Assembly (NCBI GenBank): GCA_030524545.1
Contig: JAUNGM010000018.1
Coordinates: 24,020 to 88,019, forward strand
From: Eubacteriales bacterium
GTDB taxonomy: Bacteria; Bacillota; Clostridia; Lachnospirales; Lachnospiraceae
Direction: 5' to 3'
DNA: 64,000 bases
Shown: positions 2,708 through 10,162 of the stretch, piece by piece
How the letters are laid out: each line of letters starts with the position of its first letter
Numbering within the stretch: position 1 is the stretch's first letter
Notes under the pieces: model-generated
Told to the model about the DNA's origin: nothing
Seen by the model: the letters and a program-made list of their open reading frames with translations, nothing else
The model's database searches: none
Made by a program: the position numbers and the translations under genes

Positions 2708-3855
2708 TAGATGAGAGCATTATGGAGAAGATTATCCCTATCCCGGATGAGGATGAGGAAATGGAGAAGATACAGGGTGAGCTTGAGGATGAGGGCTTCC
2801 CTATAACGAACTTCAAAAAAGGTGGAATTTTTTACCATCTTAGCCGCCTGTTAGTGACCATCTACATAGAACTGAAGGAGCTTTCCCGGACTATCCTGAA
2901 CGCCTGCTTCATCAAACATGCTGAAGGGGACTGGCTGAAGATTAAGGCAGCCGATTATTCCAAACAGCAGAAAGAAGCCAAAGCAGCAAAGGGCTATGTG
3001 ACTATCTACAGGAATGACTATAACAATGCCCTTCAGGTCACAAAAGGTCATTGCTTTAAGACGGAGCCGGATGCCGGTGGTAAGGAGCTGAAGTTCTATT
3101 GCTTACAGGATACGGTCATAGAAGCCGGAGAACCCGTGGGACGGGTGCTTGTGGAGGCAGAAGCACCCGGAACCTTTTACAATATAGCACCGGGCAGAAT
3201 AACCATATCATTGATACATCTTGACGGCATGGACTATGTGACCAATGAGGAGGACTGGCTTTTTGAAGAAGGGGCTGAAGAGGAAGACCTTGAAGACCTC
3301 CGTGACAGGTGCATGAGTTCATGGGCGGAACTGGCTACAAGAACCATAGAAGAGAAGCTCCGGAACGCAGCCAAGGCAGTTCCCGGCGTGCTGGATGCCC
3401 GGATTGATGCACAGCATCCAAGGGGGCAGGGCACCGTGGATGTGATTATCACAGGAGCAGCCGGAGAAGCTTCCCCGGAGCTGATACGGAAGGTTGGAGA
3501 AGCCATTGAGCCCCTCAAAGGGAACTATGAGGACTACCTTGTGAAGTCCAGTGAGGTAGTGCGGCAGGACTTTGAGCTTGTGATATACCTTGCTGAAGAT
3601 GCAGCCACGGATGGAGTGGATGAACAGGCAGCGAAGCTCATTGAGGATATGATGGCTCTGACACGGGGAGAGATGAACACCCTTTACCAGGACAGCATCA
3701 TCCATGTGTTCAGTGACAAGATTGACAACTACCGGAAGACGGACATCCTGAAACCGTCAGAGGATATGCTTCTTGAACAGGATAAGGTCATCATGGCAGG
3801 GGACATCAATGTATCTGTCCGGAACGTGGTACAGAGTTCAAGGGGGAAGGAGTGA
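2704..3855 (+). CDS. Baseplate assembly protein J (XkdT-like)
   Basis: This 383-residue protein has the hallmarks of Baseplate_J: an N-terminal helical region, a central part with GYVTIYRNDYNNALQVTKG and AEAPGTFYNIAPGRI (the family's 'G..gNv..g.I' segment), then LEDLRDRCMSSWAELATRTI and the C-terminal domain (VPGVLDARIDAQHPRGQGTV, VDVIITGAAGEASPELIRKV). Baseplate J forms the rim of contractile-tail baseplates, so the tail is probably myovirus-like. It starts inside the wedge gene by a 4-base overlap and is followed 7 bases later by the tail protein at 3863. Confidence 0.88.
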   Translation: MIDESIMEKIIPIPDEDEEMEKIQGELEDEGFPITNFKKGGIFYHLSRLLVTIYIELKELSRTILNACFIKHAEGDWLKIKAADYSKQQKEAKAAKGYVTIYRNDYNNALQVTKGHCFKTEPDAGGKELKFYCLQDTVIEAGEPVGRVLVEAEAPGTFYNIAPGRITISLIHLDGMDYVTNEEDWLFEEGAEEEDLEDLRDRCMSSWAELATRTIEEKLRNAAKAVPGVLDARIDAQHPRGQGTVDVIITGAAGEASPELIRKVGEAIEPLKGNYEDYLVKSSEVVRQDFELVIYLAEDAATDGVDEQAAKLIEDMMALTRGEMNTLYQDSIIHVFSDKIDNYRKTDILKPSEDMLLEQDKVIMAGDINVSVRNVVQSSRGKE

Positions 3856-3862
3856 TACCACC

Positions 3863-5164
3863 ATGATAGAGAATTTTATTGAGTACATGTGGTATCTTCT
3901 AACCACTCCGCTGAAGAAGCTGAAGAGATCCCTGAATAAGTGGTACATCCTTTGCAAGGTATACGGCAGGAGGTTTGACGAAGTGAAGGAGGACATCCTC
4001 CGGGCAAGGGATGAGGGTATGGTTGCCACGTGCTGCCATGAGATGCTCCCAGTACATGGAGCGGACAGGAGGCTCACCCGGTATGATGGAGAACATCCGG
4101 AGAACTACCGCTCAAGGATAGCCATGTATGAGGAGATATGTAAGCTTGGAGGCACCAACGAAGGAGTGTTACTTGCCGTGAAGACTTTGGGGTATACCGC
4201 CCCGGAGCTTGTGAGGGCAAATGACATGACGGGCTTTGTACACTTCACGCTGGACGGGAGCTGGCTCCTTGATGGGAGCCGGATATTGGAGTCTGACACC
4301 ATTGAGAACAGGTGGGCGGAGTTTTATATTGTCATAGGCATGGATGCGGATGAAGAGCATCCTATCAGCTTTGACATTTTGAGGAAGACCGTCCGCAAGT
4401 GGAAGGAAGTAGGGGCGAAAGACAACTATTTCTTCCGGTATACATTAAGCATCCGGGAGATAAACAGCATGAGCTTCCTTTCCGTGCTTTATAAAAAATA
4501 TTTATATTACTTTGATTATCTGAAGCTTGATGGCATGTGGGAACTGGATGGGAGTCATGTACTTGATGCTGAAAGAAACCCATACACCACAAGGATAGGA
4601 TACCGATATGAGAGCGGATATGAGCTGCATGAAGCCGGGCTTCTTGCTGTAGCCTATTGTTATGCCTGCCGGGTGGTGGAAGAGGCTGTGCTAAAGGCAG
4701 CCTACAGCTTCAGGGCACAGTATTTTGAATATCTGAAGACAGATGGCACATGGCAGACAGATGGGAGCCATGTATTGGATGCGGAAGTGTCACCAAGGGA
4801 AATGAAATGGGGAACTATCTTTCGTCATCAGCATGAAGAGGAACTGCTTCTGAAGCAGGCGTATCAGTTACCGCCATGTGAAGAGGAGCACAGCATCAGG
4901 ATAGCATTGGAACAGTACCGCATGGTCATTGATTATTTCAGTTATCTGAAGCTCAATGGGCTTTGGATACTGAATGGTTCCCGGCTTATGGATGCACAAA
5001 GAACAGAATACACCACCAAGCAGGGATACCGCTTGGGTGTAGAACATACAAGGGAGTACAGGGTCATATGGCATGAGCAGCACAACCTCATCTTCCTTGA
5101 TGGAACATGGAGCCTTGATGGTTCCAAGACAATAGATGCTTGGCAAAAAACGGAGGTATTGTAG
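3863..5164 (+). CDS. Phage tail protein with five LDGxWxLDGS repeats
   Basis: The start chosen is the ATG at 3863 (MIENFIEYMWYLLTTPLKKL), just after baseplate J; the open frame extends 30 codons upstream into that gene. Residues 1 to ~125 occupy the XkdU/gpI position and would connect baseplate to fibres. The rest carries five copies of a short motif of the form LDGxWxLDGSxxLDA, near bases 4245, 4525, 4739, 4951 and 5095. The three middle copies are preceded by YF-YLK and the central spacing is about 71 residues. Such repeats suggest a modular, beta-rich fibre-like structure. I do not recognise a named family for the repeat part. Confidence 0.65.
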   Translation: MIENFIEYMWYLLTTPLKKLKRSLNKWYILCKVYGRRFDEVKEDILRARDEGMVATCCHEMLPVHGADRRLTRYDGEHPENYRSRIAMYEEICKLGGTNEGVLLAVKTLGYTAPELVRANDMTGFVHFTLDGSWLLDGSRILESDTIENRWAEFYIVIGMDADEEHPISFDILRKTVRKWKEVGAKDNYFFRYTLSIREINSMSFLSVLYKKYLYYFDYLKLDGMWELDGSHVLDAERNPYTTRIGYRYESGYELHEAGLLAVAYCYACRVVEEAVLKAAYSFRAQYFEYLKTDGTWQTDGSHVLDAEVSPREMKWGTIFRHQHEEELLLKQAYQLPPCEEEHSIRIALEQYRMVIDYFSYLKLNGLWILNGSRLMDAQRTEYTTKQGYRLGVEHTREYRVIWHEQHNLIFLDGTWSLDGSKTIDAWQKTEVL

Positions 5165-5165
5165 A

Positions 5166-5546
5166 ATGGCAACGAAAAGCGTTATAACCAAAATCAGAAG
5201 GAAAAAGATGGCAGAAGCAAGCCACACAACCGGGAAAATTGCAAAGATAACACATATTGCACTTGGTTCCGGTGGAGTGGATGGGAGTGGAAATGTTATT
5301 GTGCCGCTCCCGGAGAATGTGCAGTTGAAAAATGAAGTGGTAAGGAAGCCCTACACCACATCAAAAAAGACTTCAGACACATCCTATGAGTACACTATTA
5401 AGCTTGAAGAAAATGAGCTTGTAGGCACCTTCATCAGTGAGATGGCACTTATTGATGAGGACGGGGATGTGGTGGCGTTCTCTAACTTCCTTGCGAAAGG
5501 CAAGGATGAGACAGAAGTGACATTCACTATCGAAGATAACTATTAA
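5166..5546 (+). CDS. Phage tail-collar fibre / fibre adaptor protein
   Basis: The start is the ATG at 5166, two bases after the previous stop. This 126-residue protein contains ITHIALGSGGVDGSGNVIVP near residue 30 and a C-terminal part LVGTFISEMALIDEDGDVVA followed by FTIEDNY. This matches the N-terminal domain of phage tail-collar fibre proteins (DUF3751 type), which anchor the receptor-binding fibre to the baseplate. Here it is a separate short protein directly upstream of the fibre that carries the DGR variable region, so it probably serves as the fibre's attachment adaptor. Confidence 0.75.
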   Translation: MATKSVITKIRRKKMAEASHTTGKIAKITHIALGSGGVDGSGNVIVPLPENVQLKNEVVRKPYTTSKKTSDTSYEYTIKLEENELVGTFISEMALIDEDGDVVAFSNFLAKGKDETEVTFTIEDNY

Positions 5547-5560
5547 GGAGGCAGAGGGAA

Positions 5561-6484
5561 ATGGCGAATTTAACAGCAGCAACGAACCCGGAGCTTGTCT
5601 TGACAATGGAGGCAATGGAGAGGACAACCCCGGCACATTATGAAGAGTGGAACCGTAGGCATCAGCAGCTCCTTGACAATGACAAGTACCTGAATGATCA
5701 GTTCCTCAATGTCATGGCGGACAATGCGGCGTCTCACAATTCCATCTACAGGGGAAAGAACCTGACAAACGTGTACACGGTAGATGAGATATGCAAACGT
5801 ATCAGTGACGGAACCTTTAAAGACCTTTATATTGGAGATTATTTTGACAAGAGCATCACTACAAGCTTGGGAGGTACCGAGACTGTCAGATTGGTATTGG
5901 CAGGCTTTGATGTGATGTGGAACAACGGAGATACAGCTCTGACAAAACATCATGCCGTGGTAGTCCCAAAAGATTGCTTTAAGACAAAGGCGAAGATGAA
6001 TGAGACAAGCGTGACCACCGGAGGATATGCAGGCTCCGATATGCACACGAAGGTACTCCCGGTCTATGCCGCAGCCTTGCAAAACGTCCTGAATAATCAT
6101 ATAATTACCCATAGAGAGCTGCTGACAACGGCAGTATCAGCAACGGGCAATTCCAACGCAGGAGCAGGGTATACAGGCTATGCCAGTGCATGGGAGTGGC
6201 AGGACTGCCAACTTAGACTGATGAGTGAGATACAGATATATGGCTCCACGGTATTCAGTTCTTCCTTCTATGACACGGGAAATGCCAATATACAGTTCCC
6301 ATTGTTCCGGTTAGCCCCTAACCTGAAGGTAGCAGGGCTTGGTCATAACGGAAGTAGAATGTGGACTTGGTTGAGTGCCGTGGTGTCGGCGGCGGCGTTT
6401 GCTAATTGTAGCAATAATGGTAATAGTAGCAGTTACAACGCCGCCGGAGAGGGTGGAGTCCGCCCGTATTTCTGTATCGGGTAA
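5561..6484 (+). CDS. Tail fibre / receptor-binding protein, DGR target with variable C-terminus
   Basis: This 307-residue protein starts at the ATG at 5561 behind AAGGAGG. The N-terminal ~75 residues are helical (EEWNRRHQQLLDNDKYLNDQ). The C-terminus resembles DGR variable proteins with a C-type-lectin fold: SRMWTWLSAVVSAAAFANC, a run of Asn/Ser/Tyr residues, then AAGEGGVRPYFCIG. The DGR variable repeat covers residues ~271-302, ending five residues before the stop. The expected role is binding host receptors at the tail tip, with diversity at exposed Asn-derived positions. Compared with the template, four residues are changed (three Asn to Ser, one Asn to Tyr). The lectin fold is inferred from family knowledge. 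Confidence 0.85.
   Translation: MANLTAATNPELVLTMEAMERTTPAHYEEWNRRHQQLLDNDKYLNDQFLNVMADNAASHNSIYRGKNLTNVYTVDEICKRISDGTFKDLYIGDYFDKSITTSLGGTETVRLVLAGFDVMWNNGDTALTKHHAVVVPKDCFKTKAKMNETSVTTGGYAGSDMHTKVLPVYAAALQNVLNNHIITHRELLTTAVSATGNSNAGAGYTGYASAWEWQDCQLRLMSEIQIYGSTVFSSSFYDTGNANIQFPLFRLAPNLKVAGLGHNGSRMWTWLSAVVSAAAFANCSNNGNSSSYNAAGEGGVRPYFCIG
6370..6466 (+). repeat. DGR variable repeat (VR)
   Basis: These 97 bases match the template repeat at 7194-7290 at the same register (offset 824). They differ at exactly four positions: 6411 (G), 6429 (G), 6432 (G) and 6434 (T). In each case the template has A. All other bases, including every C, G and T of the template, are identical. This A-only substitution pattern is the signature of mutagenic retrohoming. 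The last ~20 bases (GAGAGGGTGGAGTCCGCCCG) are unchanged and GC-rich and probably belong to the initiation-of-mutagenic-homing (IMH) site. After 6466 the flanks diverge. Confidence 0.95.
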
Positions 6485-6488
6485 TCTT

Positions 6489-6517
6489 TAATCTGCCCCC
6501 TATATGGGGGCAGATTA
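6489..6517. other. Perfect hairpin just downstream of the DGR variable repeat
   Basis: A perfect 12-base inverted repeat (TAATCTGCCCCC, loop TATAT, then its complement) starts 22 bases after the end of the variable repeat, just past the fibre stop codon. In the Bordetella phage DGR a GC-rich hairpin or cruciform directly after VR is needed for efficient retrohoming. This element has the same position and character. There is no T-run after the stem, so it is not a typical terminator, and it lies between two genes that should be co-transcribed. Confidence 0.8.
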
Positions 6518-6535
6518 CCGGAGGGAGGAAAAAGG

Positions 6536-7153
6536 TTGAGCGTACTGAAGAATAAAAGAAGTGTTTCAAGCATGGAATTTTATCATAATGCCATAGTGCT
6601 CCGAAGGGAAATAACCATGCTGCTTCTCCGGGACTTTGGCATCAAGGACAAAGTGAGGAGCATCAAGGCACTGTACGGAGTACAGGGCATGGAGCCGGAG
6701 GATGAGAAAAAGTTCCGGGAAATAATTGAGAAGTATGAGCTCACGGCGAAGATTATAGAGGAATATCCGGCGTGGCTCATAGACAAGATGAGGAATAATA
6801 TCATGAATATCCTGCACAGTATGATAATGAACATCACGCAGGCGAACACCATCTATCCAGTATGCGAGAGTGAGTTCTATGACCGGAGAAACTTCCAAAA
6901 TCATGCCATAGGGAATTGTGAACAGCTCCTTCAGGAGATGCAGTACATAATTTCTATCATCCCGGTGGATGCACAGAAGTATATGAGATATGTGGACATG
7001 ATTGAGAAGGAGATAGCCCTCCTGAAGGGATGGAGGAAGAGTGACAACAAAATCCTGAAGAAGATTAAGGAGACCGAAGCCAAGAAAGCGGAAGAAACCA
7101 AGAAAAAGGCGGAAGAGAAAAGCACTTCCCAAACAGACGAAAAGCAAGTATAA
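6536..7153 (+). CDS. avd: DGR accessory protein, Avd-like
   Basis: This 205-residue protein starts at a TTG (6536) behind GGAGGGAGG. It lies between VR and TR, the place of avd in the Bordetella DGR. Residues ~1-170 are almost all helical, consistent with the four-helix-bundle Avd fold (MSVLKNKRSVSSMEFYHNAI near the start, YEL..KIIEEYPAW, NIMNILHSMIMNITQANTIY, and a last helix with MRYVDMIEKEIALLKGW). The C-terminal ~30 residues form a highly charged Lys/Glu tail (EAKKAEETKKKAEEK). Avd is a barrel-shaped pentamer that binds the reverse transcriptase and is essential for template-primed cDNA synthesis. It is longer than Bordetella Avd (~128 residues). The call rests on synteny and helical pattern. 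Confidence 0.8.
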   Translation: MSVLKNKRSVSSMEFYHNAIVLRREITMLLLRDFGIKDKVRSIKALYGVQGMEPEDEKKFREIIEKYELTAKIIEEYPAWLIDKMRNNIMNILHSMIMNITQANTIYPVCESEFYDRRNFQNHAIGNCEQLLQEMQYIISIIPVDAQKYMRYVDMIEKEIALLKGWRKSDNKILKKIKETEAKKAEETKKKAEEKSTSQTDEKQV

Positions 7154-7458
7154 TTATCCGGGGCAAGCTTTGTATCAAGAGACACATCCTCACGTTGAGT
7201 GCCGTGGTGTCGGCGGCGGCGTTTGCTAATTGTAACAATAATGGTAATAGTAACAATAACAACGCCGCCGGAGAGGGTGGAGTCCGCCCGATTTCGTGTA
7301 TATATGCTAAGTGTAGGCTAAGTGCCGACATATGATACAGGAAAGGAAAGCTTGTCCTTCCGAAAGGTAAAGAAGCTCACTTTCTAGTAGAGGGACTGTG
7401 AGCAGCATCTTGATGCCCCCTGATACGTCAGTTGGGGCTAGGAACGAGGTGAAACTCT
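7154..7458 (+). ncRNA. Predicted DGR template RNA region (TR plus structured spacer)
   Basis: These 305 bases between the Avd-like stop and the RT start contain no credible protein gene. They hold a short leader (7154-7193), the template repeat (7194-7290) and a 168-base spacer. The spacer can fold into consecutive hairpins: AGCTT/AAGCT at 7349-7377 enclosing CCTT/AAGG; CTCAC/GTGAG at 7376-7402; GCATC/GATGC at 7405-7416; and CCCC-CTGA/TCAG-GGGG at 7416-7437. In studied DGRs the RNA downstream of TR is needed for binding RT-Avd and for priming cDNA. The transcript ends are not determined. Confidence 0.7.
7194..7290 (+). repeat. DGR template repeat (TR)
   Basis: This 97-base copy lies in non-coding sequence upstream of the reverse transcriptase, on the same strand. 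It matches the variable repeat at 6370-6466 except at 7235, 7253, 7256 and 7258, which are A here and G or T there. About 23 adenines are present, clustered in AAC/AAT codons when read in the fibre frame (the block reads Asn-Cys-Asn-Asn-Asn-Gly-Asn-Ser-Asn-Asn-Asn-Asn). Adenine mutagenesis of AAY codons gives many amino acids but no stop codons, a known design feature of TRs. The 3' flank differs from that of VR, as expected for IMH* against IMH. Confidence 0.95.
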
Positions 7459-8643
7459 ATGAAAGATATGAGGTCTGTATATGATGCCAACTCCCTGATT
7501 GATGCGTTTAATAAGTCAAAGAAGGGGACAGCGTGGAAAGAGTCAGTACAGCGGTATGAAGCAAACCTTTTGAGAAATGTCAATAAGACACAAAAGGAGC
7601 TGAAGGATGGAACCTATGAGCAGATGGGCTTTTATGAATTTGACCTCAATGAAAGAGGTCATGTCCGTCATATCAAGTCCATGCACATCTCTGACAGGGT
7701 AGTACAGCGGTCAGTATGTGACAATGTGCTTGTCCCGGAGCTCTCCAAGTATCTCACCTATGATAATGGAGCATCAATGGAGGGCAAGGGCATCCATTTT
7801 GCAAGAAAGAGGTTGAGCACTCATCTCCATAAGTTCTACAGGAAGAACAAGAGCAATGAAGGTTATGTATTACTGATTGATTTTAGCAAATTCTTTGACA
7901 ATATCGTCCATGATGGGCTGATAGAGGAGATGCGGAAAAAGATTGGTGATAAGGAGACAATGAGCTTTGTTGAGAAGCTCATAGACACCTTCAGGGTGGA
8001 TGTTTCCTACATGACGGATGATGAGTATGCTAATTGCATGAATACACTGTATAATGCCTTGGAACACGCTAAAATGGATAAGGCAAAGCTGACAGGCGAG
8101 AAGTTCATGAAGAAGTCCGTAGGGATTGGAAGCCAAATATCACAAATATCCGGAGTATACTATCCGACAAGGATAGACAACTACTGTAAGATTGTGAGGA
8201 GCATGAAATACTATGGGCGGTATATGGATGACATTTATATCATCCACGAAGATAAGGAGTACCTGAAGGGGCTCCTGAATGACATTCATGGGATATGTGA
8301 TGAGCTTGGACTCTTTATTAATCCGAAGAAAACACAGATAGTAAAGCTGTCACACGGCTTCACATTCCTTAAAATCAAATATACTTTAACAGAAACAGGC
8401 AAGGTGATTGAGCGTATCAGTAAAGACTCCGTTTTAAGGGAACGGCGGAAGCTGAAGAAGCTCCGGAAGTTCCTTGATGAAGGGAAAGTGTCTTTTGAGG
8501 ATGTGAGAAACTCCTATGCCTCATGGAGAGGTGGCGTGAGCCATTATGACTCATATACCATACTCCAAAACATGGATAAGCTCTTTGATGAGCTTTTCAT
8601 TCATCCATTTATTGAAGGAGGAAAAAGCAATGAGCAGAAATGA
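7459..8643 (+). CDS. DGR reverse transcriptase
   Basis: This 394-residue RT is preceded by GAGGTGAAACTCT. Visible motifs: LLIDFSKFFDNIVHD (motif A, catalytic Asp), the DGR-typical SVGIGSQISQISG in place of the QGxxxSP of group II intron RTs, GRYMDDIYII (catalytic YMDD), then LFINPKKTQI and FLKIKYTLTETG. There is no maturase or endonuclease domain, as is normal for DGR RTs (~300-400 residues). The enzyme copies TR RNA into cDNA with frequent errors opposite adenines; that cDNA replaces the fibre gene's variable repeat. The end overlaps the next small gene by 14 bases. Confidence 0.95.
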   Translation: MKDMRSVYDANSLIDAFNKSKKGTAWKESVQRYEANLLRNVNKTQKELKDGTYEQMGFYEFDLNERGHVRHIKSMHISDRVVQRSVCDNVLVPELSKYLTYDNGASMEGKGIHFARKRLSTHLHKFYRKNKSNEGYVLLIDFSKFFDNIVHDGLIEEMRKKIGDKETMSFVEKLIDTFRVDVSYMTDDEYANCMNTLYNALEHAKMDKAKLTGEKFMKKSVGIGSQISQISGVYYPTRIDNYCKIVRSMKYYGRYMDDIYIIHEDKEYLKGLLNDIHGICDELGLFINPKKTQIVKLSHGFTFLKIKYTLTETGKVIERISKDSVLRERRKLKKLRKFLDEGKVSFEDVRNSYASWRGGVSHYDSYTILQNMDKLFDELFIHPFIEGGKSNEQK

Positions 8644-8866
8644 GATAGAGCAGAAGATAAGAGACCTAAAGACCCGGCTTTCCTGTCAGGAGTCGGATAT
8701 TGGAGATTGGAAGGTTGCAAAGTGCATGGAGTATTCCACCCTTGGATTGGAAGCACCCTATGACTTTCAGGAACTGCATGAGAAGCGTCAGGCTGTTCGG
8801 AATGAGATTGATGCTTTGGAAGCGGAGCTTAAAATAGCTCCAATTAGTGAAGAAGAGATCGCATAG
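8630..8866 (+). CDS. Small coiled-coil protein overlapping the DGR RT gene
   Basis: A 78-residue protein (MSRNEIEQKIRDLKTRLSCQ...) starts at the ATG at 8630, inside the last codons of the RT gene, behind GAAGGAGG at 8613-8620. Two helices with heptad-like patterning (residues 1-20 and ~50-72, HEKRQAVRNEIDALEAELK) suggest a helical hairpin or coiled coil. I do not recognise a family. The overlap and strong ribosome site imply co-translation with the RT, so a role as a DGR accessory or an ordinary small phage protein are both possible. Confidence 0.75.
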   Translation: MSRNEIEQKIRDLKTRLSCQESDIGDWKVAKCMEYSTLGLEAPYDFQELHEKRQAVRNEIDALEAELKIAPISEEEIA

Positions 8867-8943
8867 ACAGTACAATAGAACGGTTCATTATTAGTCCTTA
8901 TCGTAATGATGCCCCACATTATTATGAAAGAAGGAATGCAATT

Positions 8944-9702
8944 ATGGATAGTTTTATGAGTTGGATTGGCGGTAAAAAAGCACTTAGGAAGAAGATTGTG
9001 GAGCAATTCCCTGAACCGGGGACATATAACCGATATATAGAGGTTTTTGGCGGAGCCGGGTGGGTTCTCTTTTCTTCTGACAGTCATGCCAAGATGGAAG
9101 TCTACAATGATGTCAATGGGAACCTTGTTAATCTGTTCCGCTGTATTAAGTACCACCCGGATGCTGTTCAGGAAGAATTGCGGTACATTCTCATATCAAG
9201 GGAACAGTTTTTTGATGCAAGAGAACAGATTGAAACTAGGGGAATGACTGATATTCAAAGGGCAGCAAGGTTCTTTATTCTGATTAAAGAGAGCTTTGGT
9301 ACAGACCTCCGTTCATTCGGACTGCGTTCACGGGATATGGAAAAGGCAAAAGAGTATCTAAGTGAAGTGTCTAAGAGACTGAATAAAGTAGTCATTGAAA
9401 ACCTTGATTTTGAAAAAATTCTCAAAAATCATGACAGAACAGATGCGTTATTTTATCTTGACCCACCATATTATGAAACGGAGAAATATTATCCGGACAG
9501 GTTCATGCCAGAAGACCATGAGAGATTAAAAGCAGCATTAGATGGCATCAAGGGTAAGTTTGTTTTGTCATATAATGATTGTGGCTATATTAGGGAACTT
9601 TACGAAGGCTATACAATCATTGAAGTGGATAGGTTGCACAATCTTGTGCAGAAAGAAGTAAAGCCCCGATACAGGGAGCTTATTATTAAAAATTTTGTGT
9701 AA
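8944..9702 (+). CDS. D12-class DNA adenine N6-methyltransferase (Dam-like)
   Basis: This 252-residue protein has the D12 (Dam) layout. SAM-binding motif I is near the N-terminus (SWIGGKKALRKKIVEQF, then YIEVFGGAGWVLF). The catalytic motif IV DPPYYE is near residue 178 and a SYNDC segment follows. Between them lies a short target-recognition region (FGLRSRDMEKAKEYLSEVSK). It methylates adenine in a short DNA site that cannot be read from sequence. No restriction enzyme gene is adjacent, so it is probably a solitary phage methylase protecting phage DNA or altering regulation. An ATG 15 bases downstream (MSWIGG) is an alternative start. Confidence 0.9.
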   Translation: MDSFMSWIGGKKALRKKIVEQFPEPGTYNRYIEVFGGAGWVLFSSDSHAKMEVYNDVNGNLVNLFRCIKYHPDAVQEELRYILISREQFFDAREQIETRGMTDIQRAARFFILIKESFGTDLRSFGLRSRDMEKAKEYLSEVSKRLNKVVIENLDFEKILKNHDRTDALFYLDPPYYETEKYYPDRFMPEDHERLKAALDGIKGKFVLSYNDCGYIRELYEGYTIIEVDRLHNLVQKEVKPRYRELIIKNFV

Positions 9703-10080: not shown

Positions 10081-10141
10081 CGGGAAATATTTCCCGAAAG
10101 TTTTTGACAATTATTTTGAAAATCTTTGACAAAAATTTTGA
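10081..10141. promoter_or_regulatory. Palindrome and paired TTGACAA repeats upstream of the c-di-GMP operon
   Basis: A perfect 16-base palindrome (CGGGAAATATTTCCCG, 10081-10096) is followed by two near-identical 16-base repeats (TTGACAAWWATTTTGA) at 10104-10119 and 10126-10141, exactly 22 bases apart, two helical turns. Each repeat starts with a -35-like TTGACA. The block lies just before the gene at 10163, so it is a candidate promoter/operator for the c-di-GMP genes. Confidence 0.5.
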
Positions 10142-10162
10142 GCGGCTACAGCTGAGCATGGA

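Follow-up and report, generated by a model that had tools for sequence, protein, structure and literature searches.

A diversity-generating retroelement in a Mu-like prophage and a candidate second class of target-site hairpin tip

Gene content and repeat pair of the locus

The stretch of DNA analysed here, called the window, comprises 64,000 nucleotides (nt) from a Lachnospiraceae genome (assembly GCA_030524545.1, contig JAUNGM010000018.1, positions 24,020 to 88,019 of the forward strand). Positions 5561 to 8643 encode, all on the plus strand, a target gene ending in a variable repeat (VR), an Avd-like gene, a template repeat (TR) and a reverse transcriptase (RT) of the type found in diversity-generating retroelements (DGRs). 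A sequence-only reading of the window had described this as a complete DGR in the gene order of Bordetella phage BPP-1, and every component that it named is present. The features of the element are the following (bp, base pairs; aa, amino acids; IMH, initiation of mutagenic homing).

5561..6484, plus strand: DGR target gene, 307 aa, DUF6273-like, modelled C-type-lectin-like fold, VR at the 3' end
6370..6466, plus strand: VR, 97 nt, four changes from TR, all at TR adenines
6467..6483, plus strand: IMH-like end of VR, TATTTCTGTAT..., whose differences from the TR copy largely recur in the close relatives aligned
6489..6517, plus strand: target-site hairpin, 12-bp stem (6489-6500/6506-6517) and 5-nt loop TATAT (6501-6505)
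6536..7153, plus strand: Avd-like accessory gene, 205 aa, TTG start
7194..7290, plus strand: TR, 97 nt, 23 adenines
7291..7308, plus strand: IMH*-like end of TR, ATTTCGTGTATATATGC, which begins the conserved spacer fold
7292..7344, plus strand: predicted spacer RNA hairpin 1, 7292-7306 with 7329-7344 and inner pairs 7316-7318 with 7324-7326, covarying
7375..7403, plus strand: predicted spacer RNA hairpin 2, found in the window's clade but in none of the distant loci aligned; one compensatory change, C-G/U-A
7406..7451, plus strand: predicted spacer RNA hairpin 3, 7406-7412 with 7445-7451 and 7415-7423 with 7428-7438, covarying, also in distant DGRs
7459..8643, plus strand: DGR reverse transcriptase, 394 aa, SQ motif and YMDD

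The predicted 97-base repeat pair was confirmed. VR (6370-6466) and TR (7194-7290) lie 824 nt apart and agree at 93 of 97 positions, and all four mismatches fall on an A in TR (three A>G, one A>T). The repeat finder returned a 108-nt pair with 93% identity, whose last 11 nt carry differences of the IMH/IMH* type that recur little changed in the close relatives aligned. The consensus is (T/C)ATT(T/C)CTGTAT at the VR end (11 sequences) and ATTTCGTGTA at the TR end (13 sequences). Since the two copies diverge beyond position 97 in a near-identical manner across these relatives, this segment fits the IMH/IMH* pair of BPP-1. A search of the 4.34-Mb assembly with TR found no further VR; beyond TR and VR themselves, matches had E-values of 1.4 or worse.

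The RT contains the sequences VGIGSQISQ and YMDD, and so bears out the DGR-type SQ motif and YMDD noted in the sequence-only reading. It matches RVT_1 (4.3e-18) and phrog_1423 "Reverse transcriptase" (E 3.6e-75). Searched as a profile against the PDB, it finds chain 8ub7, an RT of 328 aa, as the best match (E 2.6e-48), followed by a group II intron RT (1.4e-23). Chain 8ub7 is probably the RT of BPP-1, as its length equals that in the BPP-1 record. A defence RT (DRT or retron) and a group II intron RT were rejected as alternatives: the best PADLOC model is a generic RT, the PDB profile prefers 8ub7, and the NCBIfam matches to group II, Drt and retron models are all far under their cut-offs.

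The Avd-like protein matches phrog_3206 "Avd protein of DGR" (E 2.7e-8), and the predicted structure of the target protein has the expected C-type-lectin-like fold, with VR encoding its C-terminal end. Several results weigh against these two identities. The Avd-like protein has no Pfam match at 0.001 and no detectable similarity to BPP-1 Avd (hhalign probability 0.1); the target has no detectable sequence similarity to Mtd, and its DUF6273 score lies under the Pfam cut-off (E 0.036). PDB searches with the target and Avd profiles gave best E-values of 0.17 and 0.55 to proteins with unrelated names. The sequence-only reading had also called the target a fibre gene in a tail module. The tail module stands, but the target is a short DUF6273-like protein that matches no tail-fibre family; a tail-collar fibre domain is encoded by another gene next to it (5169-5546). 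The target may nevertheless form the receptor-binding tip of the tail.

Variation between strains

VRs from related genomes differ from one another, and they do so almost only at template adenines, neither staying identical between strains nor changing as often at other bases. A near-twin of the locus is the contig IMGVR_UViG_2806310962_000004 (loci L031/L054), which is 97.8% identical over 6737 nt. The TRs of window and twin are identical, and the VRs differ at 13 sites, all at TR adenines (P 2.5e-10, given that 23 of 97 bases are A). We extended this comparison to 20 hand-picked loci, which yielded 20 pairs with equal-length TRs and at most three TR differences. In the seven pairs with 98.3-100% identical 600-nt flanks there is not a single TR difference, and 95 of 99 VR differences, 11-19 per pair, are located at TR adenines (window/L054, 13/13; L017/L018, 10/11; L021/L036, 11/11; L019/L033, 15/15; L041/L042, 13/15; L044/L045, 19/19; L026/L038, 14/15).

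The comparison of VR with its own TR gives the same picture. In 11 loci from the clade of the window, all but one of 106 changes fall on an A: 105 of 228 TR adenines are altered (A>G 52, A>T 35, A>C 18), as opposed to one of the 836 remaining positions (T>C). Together with 93 of 97 identical positions at a distance of 824 nt and the A-only changes in the window, these counts exclude a chance origin of the repeat pair. In a wider set of 95 distinct pairs, 1389 of 1421 changes are at A.

Some observations count against a working DGR here or limit the counts. Four of the 99 VR differences, distributed over three of the seven near-clonal pairs, lie off TR adenines. The bias in the wider set is partly built in, because the rule by which pairs were called favours A; the counts from the seven pairs and the 11 loci are fairer. 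The window VR is also the least changed of its clade, with four of 23 adenines altered compared to 8-12 in ten relatives. This last point, and a twin contig whose prophage appears internally deleted, are what could be expected of a decaying DGR from a once active family, but we consider such decay very unlikely. The frames for RT, Avd-like protein and target are open, and TR and the hairpin are kept; the RT shares 99% identity with its counterpart in the twin, where VR shows 13 differences; and a recent homing event would likewise leave few changes. We give almost no credence to the alternative that recombination among diverged alleles, followed by selection, produced the VR differences. Phages do recombine frequently, but the seven near-clonal pairs combine nearly identical flanks and a TR unchanged in 7/7 with differences concentrated at TR adenines.

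Comparison between strains therefore indicates that this DGR has been active in nature, although the earlier wording that it "continuously" diversifies its target goes beyond such evidence. With high confidence, we read the locus as a DGR of a working type carried by a Mu-like transposable prophage, whose host is probably a Lachnospiraceae of the gut.

The hairpin behind the variable repeat

The 12-bp stem of the target-site hairpin starts 23 nt past VR, within the 4-34 bp at which a GC-rich inverted repeat has been described behind VR. As single-stranded DNA this region folds 4.2 standard deviations below shuffled sequences, and the stem, its outermost pairs excepted, does not vary among 11 aligned sequences of the clade. 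Guo et al. 2011 (PMC3240598) describe phage DGR hairpins with GC-rich stems of 7-10 bp and 4-nt GRNA loops. According to the same paper, loop size and sequence are critical in BPP-1, where an enlargement by as little as 2 nt reduces homing to near background. The hairpin of the window, with its 5-nt loop TATAT and 12-bp stem, departs from this description in both respects.

To place this deviation, hairpins were scanned as perfect Watson-Crick arms of at least 5 bp with at least four G/C and loops of 3-8 nt, keeping the best score. The wider scan was given 122 loci, of which 103 had a TR/VR call; among the 19 dropped were L022, L023, L028, L035 and L043, and two of these, L023 and L028, had shown 5-nt loops (CTAGT and TTCAT) in an earlier scan. 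Loci L093-L168 are the best 80 of 576 matches and all lie near the window's RT branch. Because L031/L054/L093 and L034/L055 represent the same contigs, we counted distinct downstream segments (84) or distinct combinations of loop and stem (48).

Five-nucleotide loops predominate behind VR: 61 of the 84 segments carry one, nine have a 4-nt loop, four have loops of other lengths (3, 6, 7 and 8 nt, each once) and ten have no hairpin. The pattern YNNRY describes all but one of the 5-nt loops, that is 60/84 segments behind VR versus 0/83 behind TR, where the only 5-nt loop is not YNNRY. Random 90-nt pieces from the same loci contained a 5-nt loop in 36 of 2060 cases. The nine 4-nt loops comprise three GRNA, one GCGA and five others. 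A scan of ten named phages returned GAAA for BPP-1, the loop also named in PMC3240598, GGTA for Vibrio phages VP58.5 and 1F273_PE002, GGAA for Taranis, CTCGT for Shimadzu and CTTGC for Fontainebleau; no hairpin was found behind VR in Brigit, Toutatis, nd4 and nd12. By these sequence patterns, the target hairpin of the window and of most relatives sampled has a tip other than the one described for phages.

The composition of the 5-nt loops suggests how this tip may be built. Among the 48 distinct combinations, bases 1 and 4 are C..G in 33, T..A in 14 and G..G in one, so that 47 of 48 could pair; shuffling base 4 gave a mean of 27.5 pairs and never reached 47 in 10000 trials. On an RT tree with 87 of 94 RTs (BPP-1, Fontainebleau and Taranis are among the seven missing), the C..G/T..A state requires at least 11 changes over 58 tips (shuffled mean 17.5, minimum 13). 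We surmise that bases 1 and 4 pair across a turn of two bases, leaving base 5 out, and that this structure can stand in for the G..A-closed GRNA tip. Loci L029, L044/L045 and L116 are single members with G..A-closed 4-nt loops (GAAA, GAGA and GCGA) among neighbours on the RT tree with 5-nt loops, which suggests that one tip type may be exchanged for the other. With at least 11 switches between C-G and T-A and about four between 5-nt and G..A-closed tips, the recipient VR would be recognised by shape rather than by letters.

This interpretation has weaknesses. The shuffling of base 4 treats related sequences as independent. The four switches between 5-nt and G..A-closed loops were counted over only six G..A-closed tips, and shuffling gave a mean of 5.8 with a minimum of 4 in 500 trials. 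Phages recombine often, which weakens any parsimony count on an RT tree. In the literature searched, which was limited to open-licence papers, we did not find the paired 5-nt loop class described.

Could the hairpin instead be the transcription terminator of the target gene? Its GC-rich stem stands directly after the gene, between target and avd, and since only VR and not TR ends a gene, the absence of a hairpin behind TR fits a terminator as well. Against this, its location matches that of the BPP-1 hairpin for which experiments demonstrated a function in homing (PMC3240598). In addition, no run of T follows the hairpin in the window, the loop favours one length, and its bases 1 and 4 covary. 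We therefore regard a terminator as improbable.

An alternative that is unlikely but deserves more weight is that the hairpin acts as RNA, for example in avd translation or mRNA stability, with a CUUG-like tetraloop plus one base, so that the 1/4 pairing would reflect recognition of RNA. CUUG loops, in which a C-G pair spans two bases, are known as stable RNA structures. A purine-rich stretch ahead of the avd start also lies directly behind the hairpin. On the other side, nuclease cleavage of supercoiled DNA demonstrated the DNA form of the BPP-1 hairpin, and homing in BPP-1 is structure-dependent (PMC3240598). DNA and RNA roles of the hairpin could exist side by side.

A conserved fold in the spacer RNA

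The spacer between TR and the RT gene (7291-7458) has a predicted fold that is kept in eight clade sequences, with five pairs changed on both sides. The covariation score of this alignment was reached by none of 500 shuffles. Hairpin 2 forms in 13 of 13 sequences checked, with 6 to 11 pairs. A covariance model built from the eight sequences finds the element at 15 of the 33 other loci, with E-values from 3e-18 to 0.017; L047, a partial match, L027 and L050 are the weakest. Where a TR was called these matches start at its 3' end, except for the partial match in L047; L016 and L043 have no TR call. The model also gave a match at E 0.42 on the VR side of the window. RNAalifold, applied to 11 sequences aligned independently of the model, again yields hairpins 1 and 3; 22 of 28 pairs are changed on both sides in at least one sequence, compared with 30 of 44 in the model-fitted alignment. 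No Rfam family matches the window at gathering scores.

Two results limit this evidence: the five pairs changed on both sides were reached by 22 of 500 shuffles, and the model misses 18 of 33 other loci, including BPP-1; neither Shimadzu nor the two other DGRs of the same genome are found by it. Within the loci that it covers, the covariation signal indicates that the spacer behind TR has a conserved fold. In BPP-1, the spacer folds and recruits RT-Avd (PMC12875486), and by this analogy the spacer RNA may play the same role here.

A model for homing

Three elements of the following model can be read from the sequence. The RNA template TR appears to stay fixed while VR, the 3' end of the C-type-lectin-like gene, changes between strains nearly only at TR adenines; a GC-rich hairpin is predicted after VR, with none after TR; and the spacer following TR keeps a covarying fold. 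The remaining steps are modelled on BPP-1. RT and Avd would bind the folded spacer, an adenine-mutagenised cDNA of TR would be started near IMH*, and this cDNA would replace VR, with the IMH end and the hairpin marking VR as the recipient. The changed protein would bind the host surface at the tail tip, giving phage progeny with varied receptor binders. We lean towards the broader proposal, by a small measure, that DGRs use at least two interchangeable tips, that most of those sampled from the window's RT branch carry the 5-nt YNNRY form, and that tip shape, together with the conserved folded spacer RNA in the template, allows VR to be recognised.

The Mu-like carrier

The DGR is followed by the right end of the prophage.

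8630..8866, plus strand: small gene, phrog_17180
8944..9702, plus strand: Dam-type DNA adenine methyltransferase gene of the phage right end, between DGR and end
10117..10150, plus strand: right end sequence of the Mu-like prophage, ...GAGCGGCTACA, with host DNA starting at 10151

The sequence-only reading had left open whether the carrier is a phage or a tailocin. A tailocin, which has no head genes, is ruled out by portal, head and protease genes upstream on the same contig. The genes found there match DDE_2, Mu-transpos_C (MuA-type transposase), Gp27, Portal_Mu, Mu F, Mu-like_Pro and gpT; an amidase and a DUF2586 protein, by our own reading the sheath, are also encoded upstream of the window. 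The 16-nt right-end sequence occurs exactly once in the genome, and the host DNA beyond the right end differs among the window, L017 and L018. L018 has both ends on one contig (...GATAT|TGTAAC...CTACA|GATAT...), from which a 5-bp duplication and TG...CA ends were read by eye. Against these signs of transposition, the left end could not be located in the window's genome: the one pattern searched had no exact match, and one match with two mismatches lies on another contig. The host is probably a gut bacterium.

Mu-like phages of Firmicutes are reportedly the subject of a 2013 article by Toussaint, to judge by its title. Mu-like DGR phages are already known, namely Mushu (PMC5883640, PMC11792537) and hankyphage (PMC12135933), so that the locus adds a member to a kind already described. 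A DNA search of phage records with the DGR gave no match.

Two side observations concern the carrier. In the twin L054/L031, coordinates suggest that the MuA match stops at residue 565 with the baseplate region directly after it, which would suggest a large internal deletion or a misassembly in which the DGR was kept. In the window, the tail gene at 3773-5164 contains three 66-nt repeats, 213 nt apart (4508-4999), the second and third of which are 76% and 64% like the first.

Other retroelements in the genome and among relatives

The genome contains three DGRs: that of the window and two others, each near a Baseplate_J gene. In L010 (G000:C54:138000-152000, element at 4810-7902) the target has a weak FGE match below the cut-off; in L011 (G000:C2:87000-101000, element at 6180-9232, minus strand) the target has no FGE match. 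The Avd proteins of both fit Pfam bAvd, and 16/16 and 16/17 changes between VR and TR are at A. Further RVT_1 matches occur at G000:C10:84188-85009 and C70:625-1252, with an internal stop in one C70 match.

Four relatives have unusual arrangements. In L035 (around 3442) the target runs directly into TR and Avd is missing; VR-TR recombination or a collapse of the repeats in the assembly are proposed readings. The TR of L023 (repeats at 4900-4994 and 5707-5801) has few adenines and only two differences from VR; it may have been overwritten by VR-like sequence. In L047 (5327-5881) the avd frame extends across TR, which is therefore protein-coding as well. In L022 (4984-5091) N stands in place of most of VR, as expected if VR diversity breaks the assembly; its genome, G358, has three copies of the transposase gene of the window phage.

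Relation to known systems and significance

The system shares with BPP-1 (mtd-avd-TR-brt, record NC_005357) the gene order, the TR/VR logic, the A-specific change, a hairpin behind VR and a related RT (25% identity, E 2e-22). It differs in its 5-nt YNNRY loop as opposed to a 4-nt GRNA loop, its 12-bp stem, its Mu-like carrier and an insert before the SQ motif of the RT. Faecalibacterium phage Mushu and the Bacteroides hankyphage are similar in combining Mu-like transposition with a DGR, for which activity is reported in both. The Mushu target is described as Hoc-like with Ig domains, whereas that of the window is a short C-type-lectin-like protein. DUF6273 targets with VR in the C-terminal part are reported for target2 of nd4/nd12 and for Faecalibacterium phages Roos, Pioen and Lelie; target2 of nd4/nd12 was modelled as a C-type lectin whose surface beta-hairpin contains VR. 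The nd4 and nd12 RTs stand apart from the window RT in the tip order of the RT tree, and in each phage one VR was called, with no hairpin in our scan. Roseburia phage Shimadzu is the first-ranked named phage match to the RT (41% identity) and has the same order of tail fibre, Avd and RT along with its 5-nt loop; its 19-kb stretch has an annotated integrase (pseudogene) and no annotated Mu-type gene.

The locus is thus a good member, of an active type, of a known kind. What may extend this kind is a second class of hairpin tip, with evidence for pairing within the loop, and a covarying spacer fold. The mark of the recipient must be known in order to find and understand DGR targets. If many DGRs of gut Firmicutes phages do use a paired 5-nt tip, searches for GRNA loops would miss them, and the question of what reads the hairpin would become testable by comparing the two tip types. 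The covarying spacer fold, in turn, would provide a sequence handle on an RNA whose BPP-1 counterpart recruits RT and Avd.

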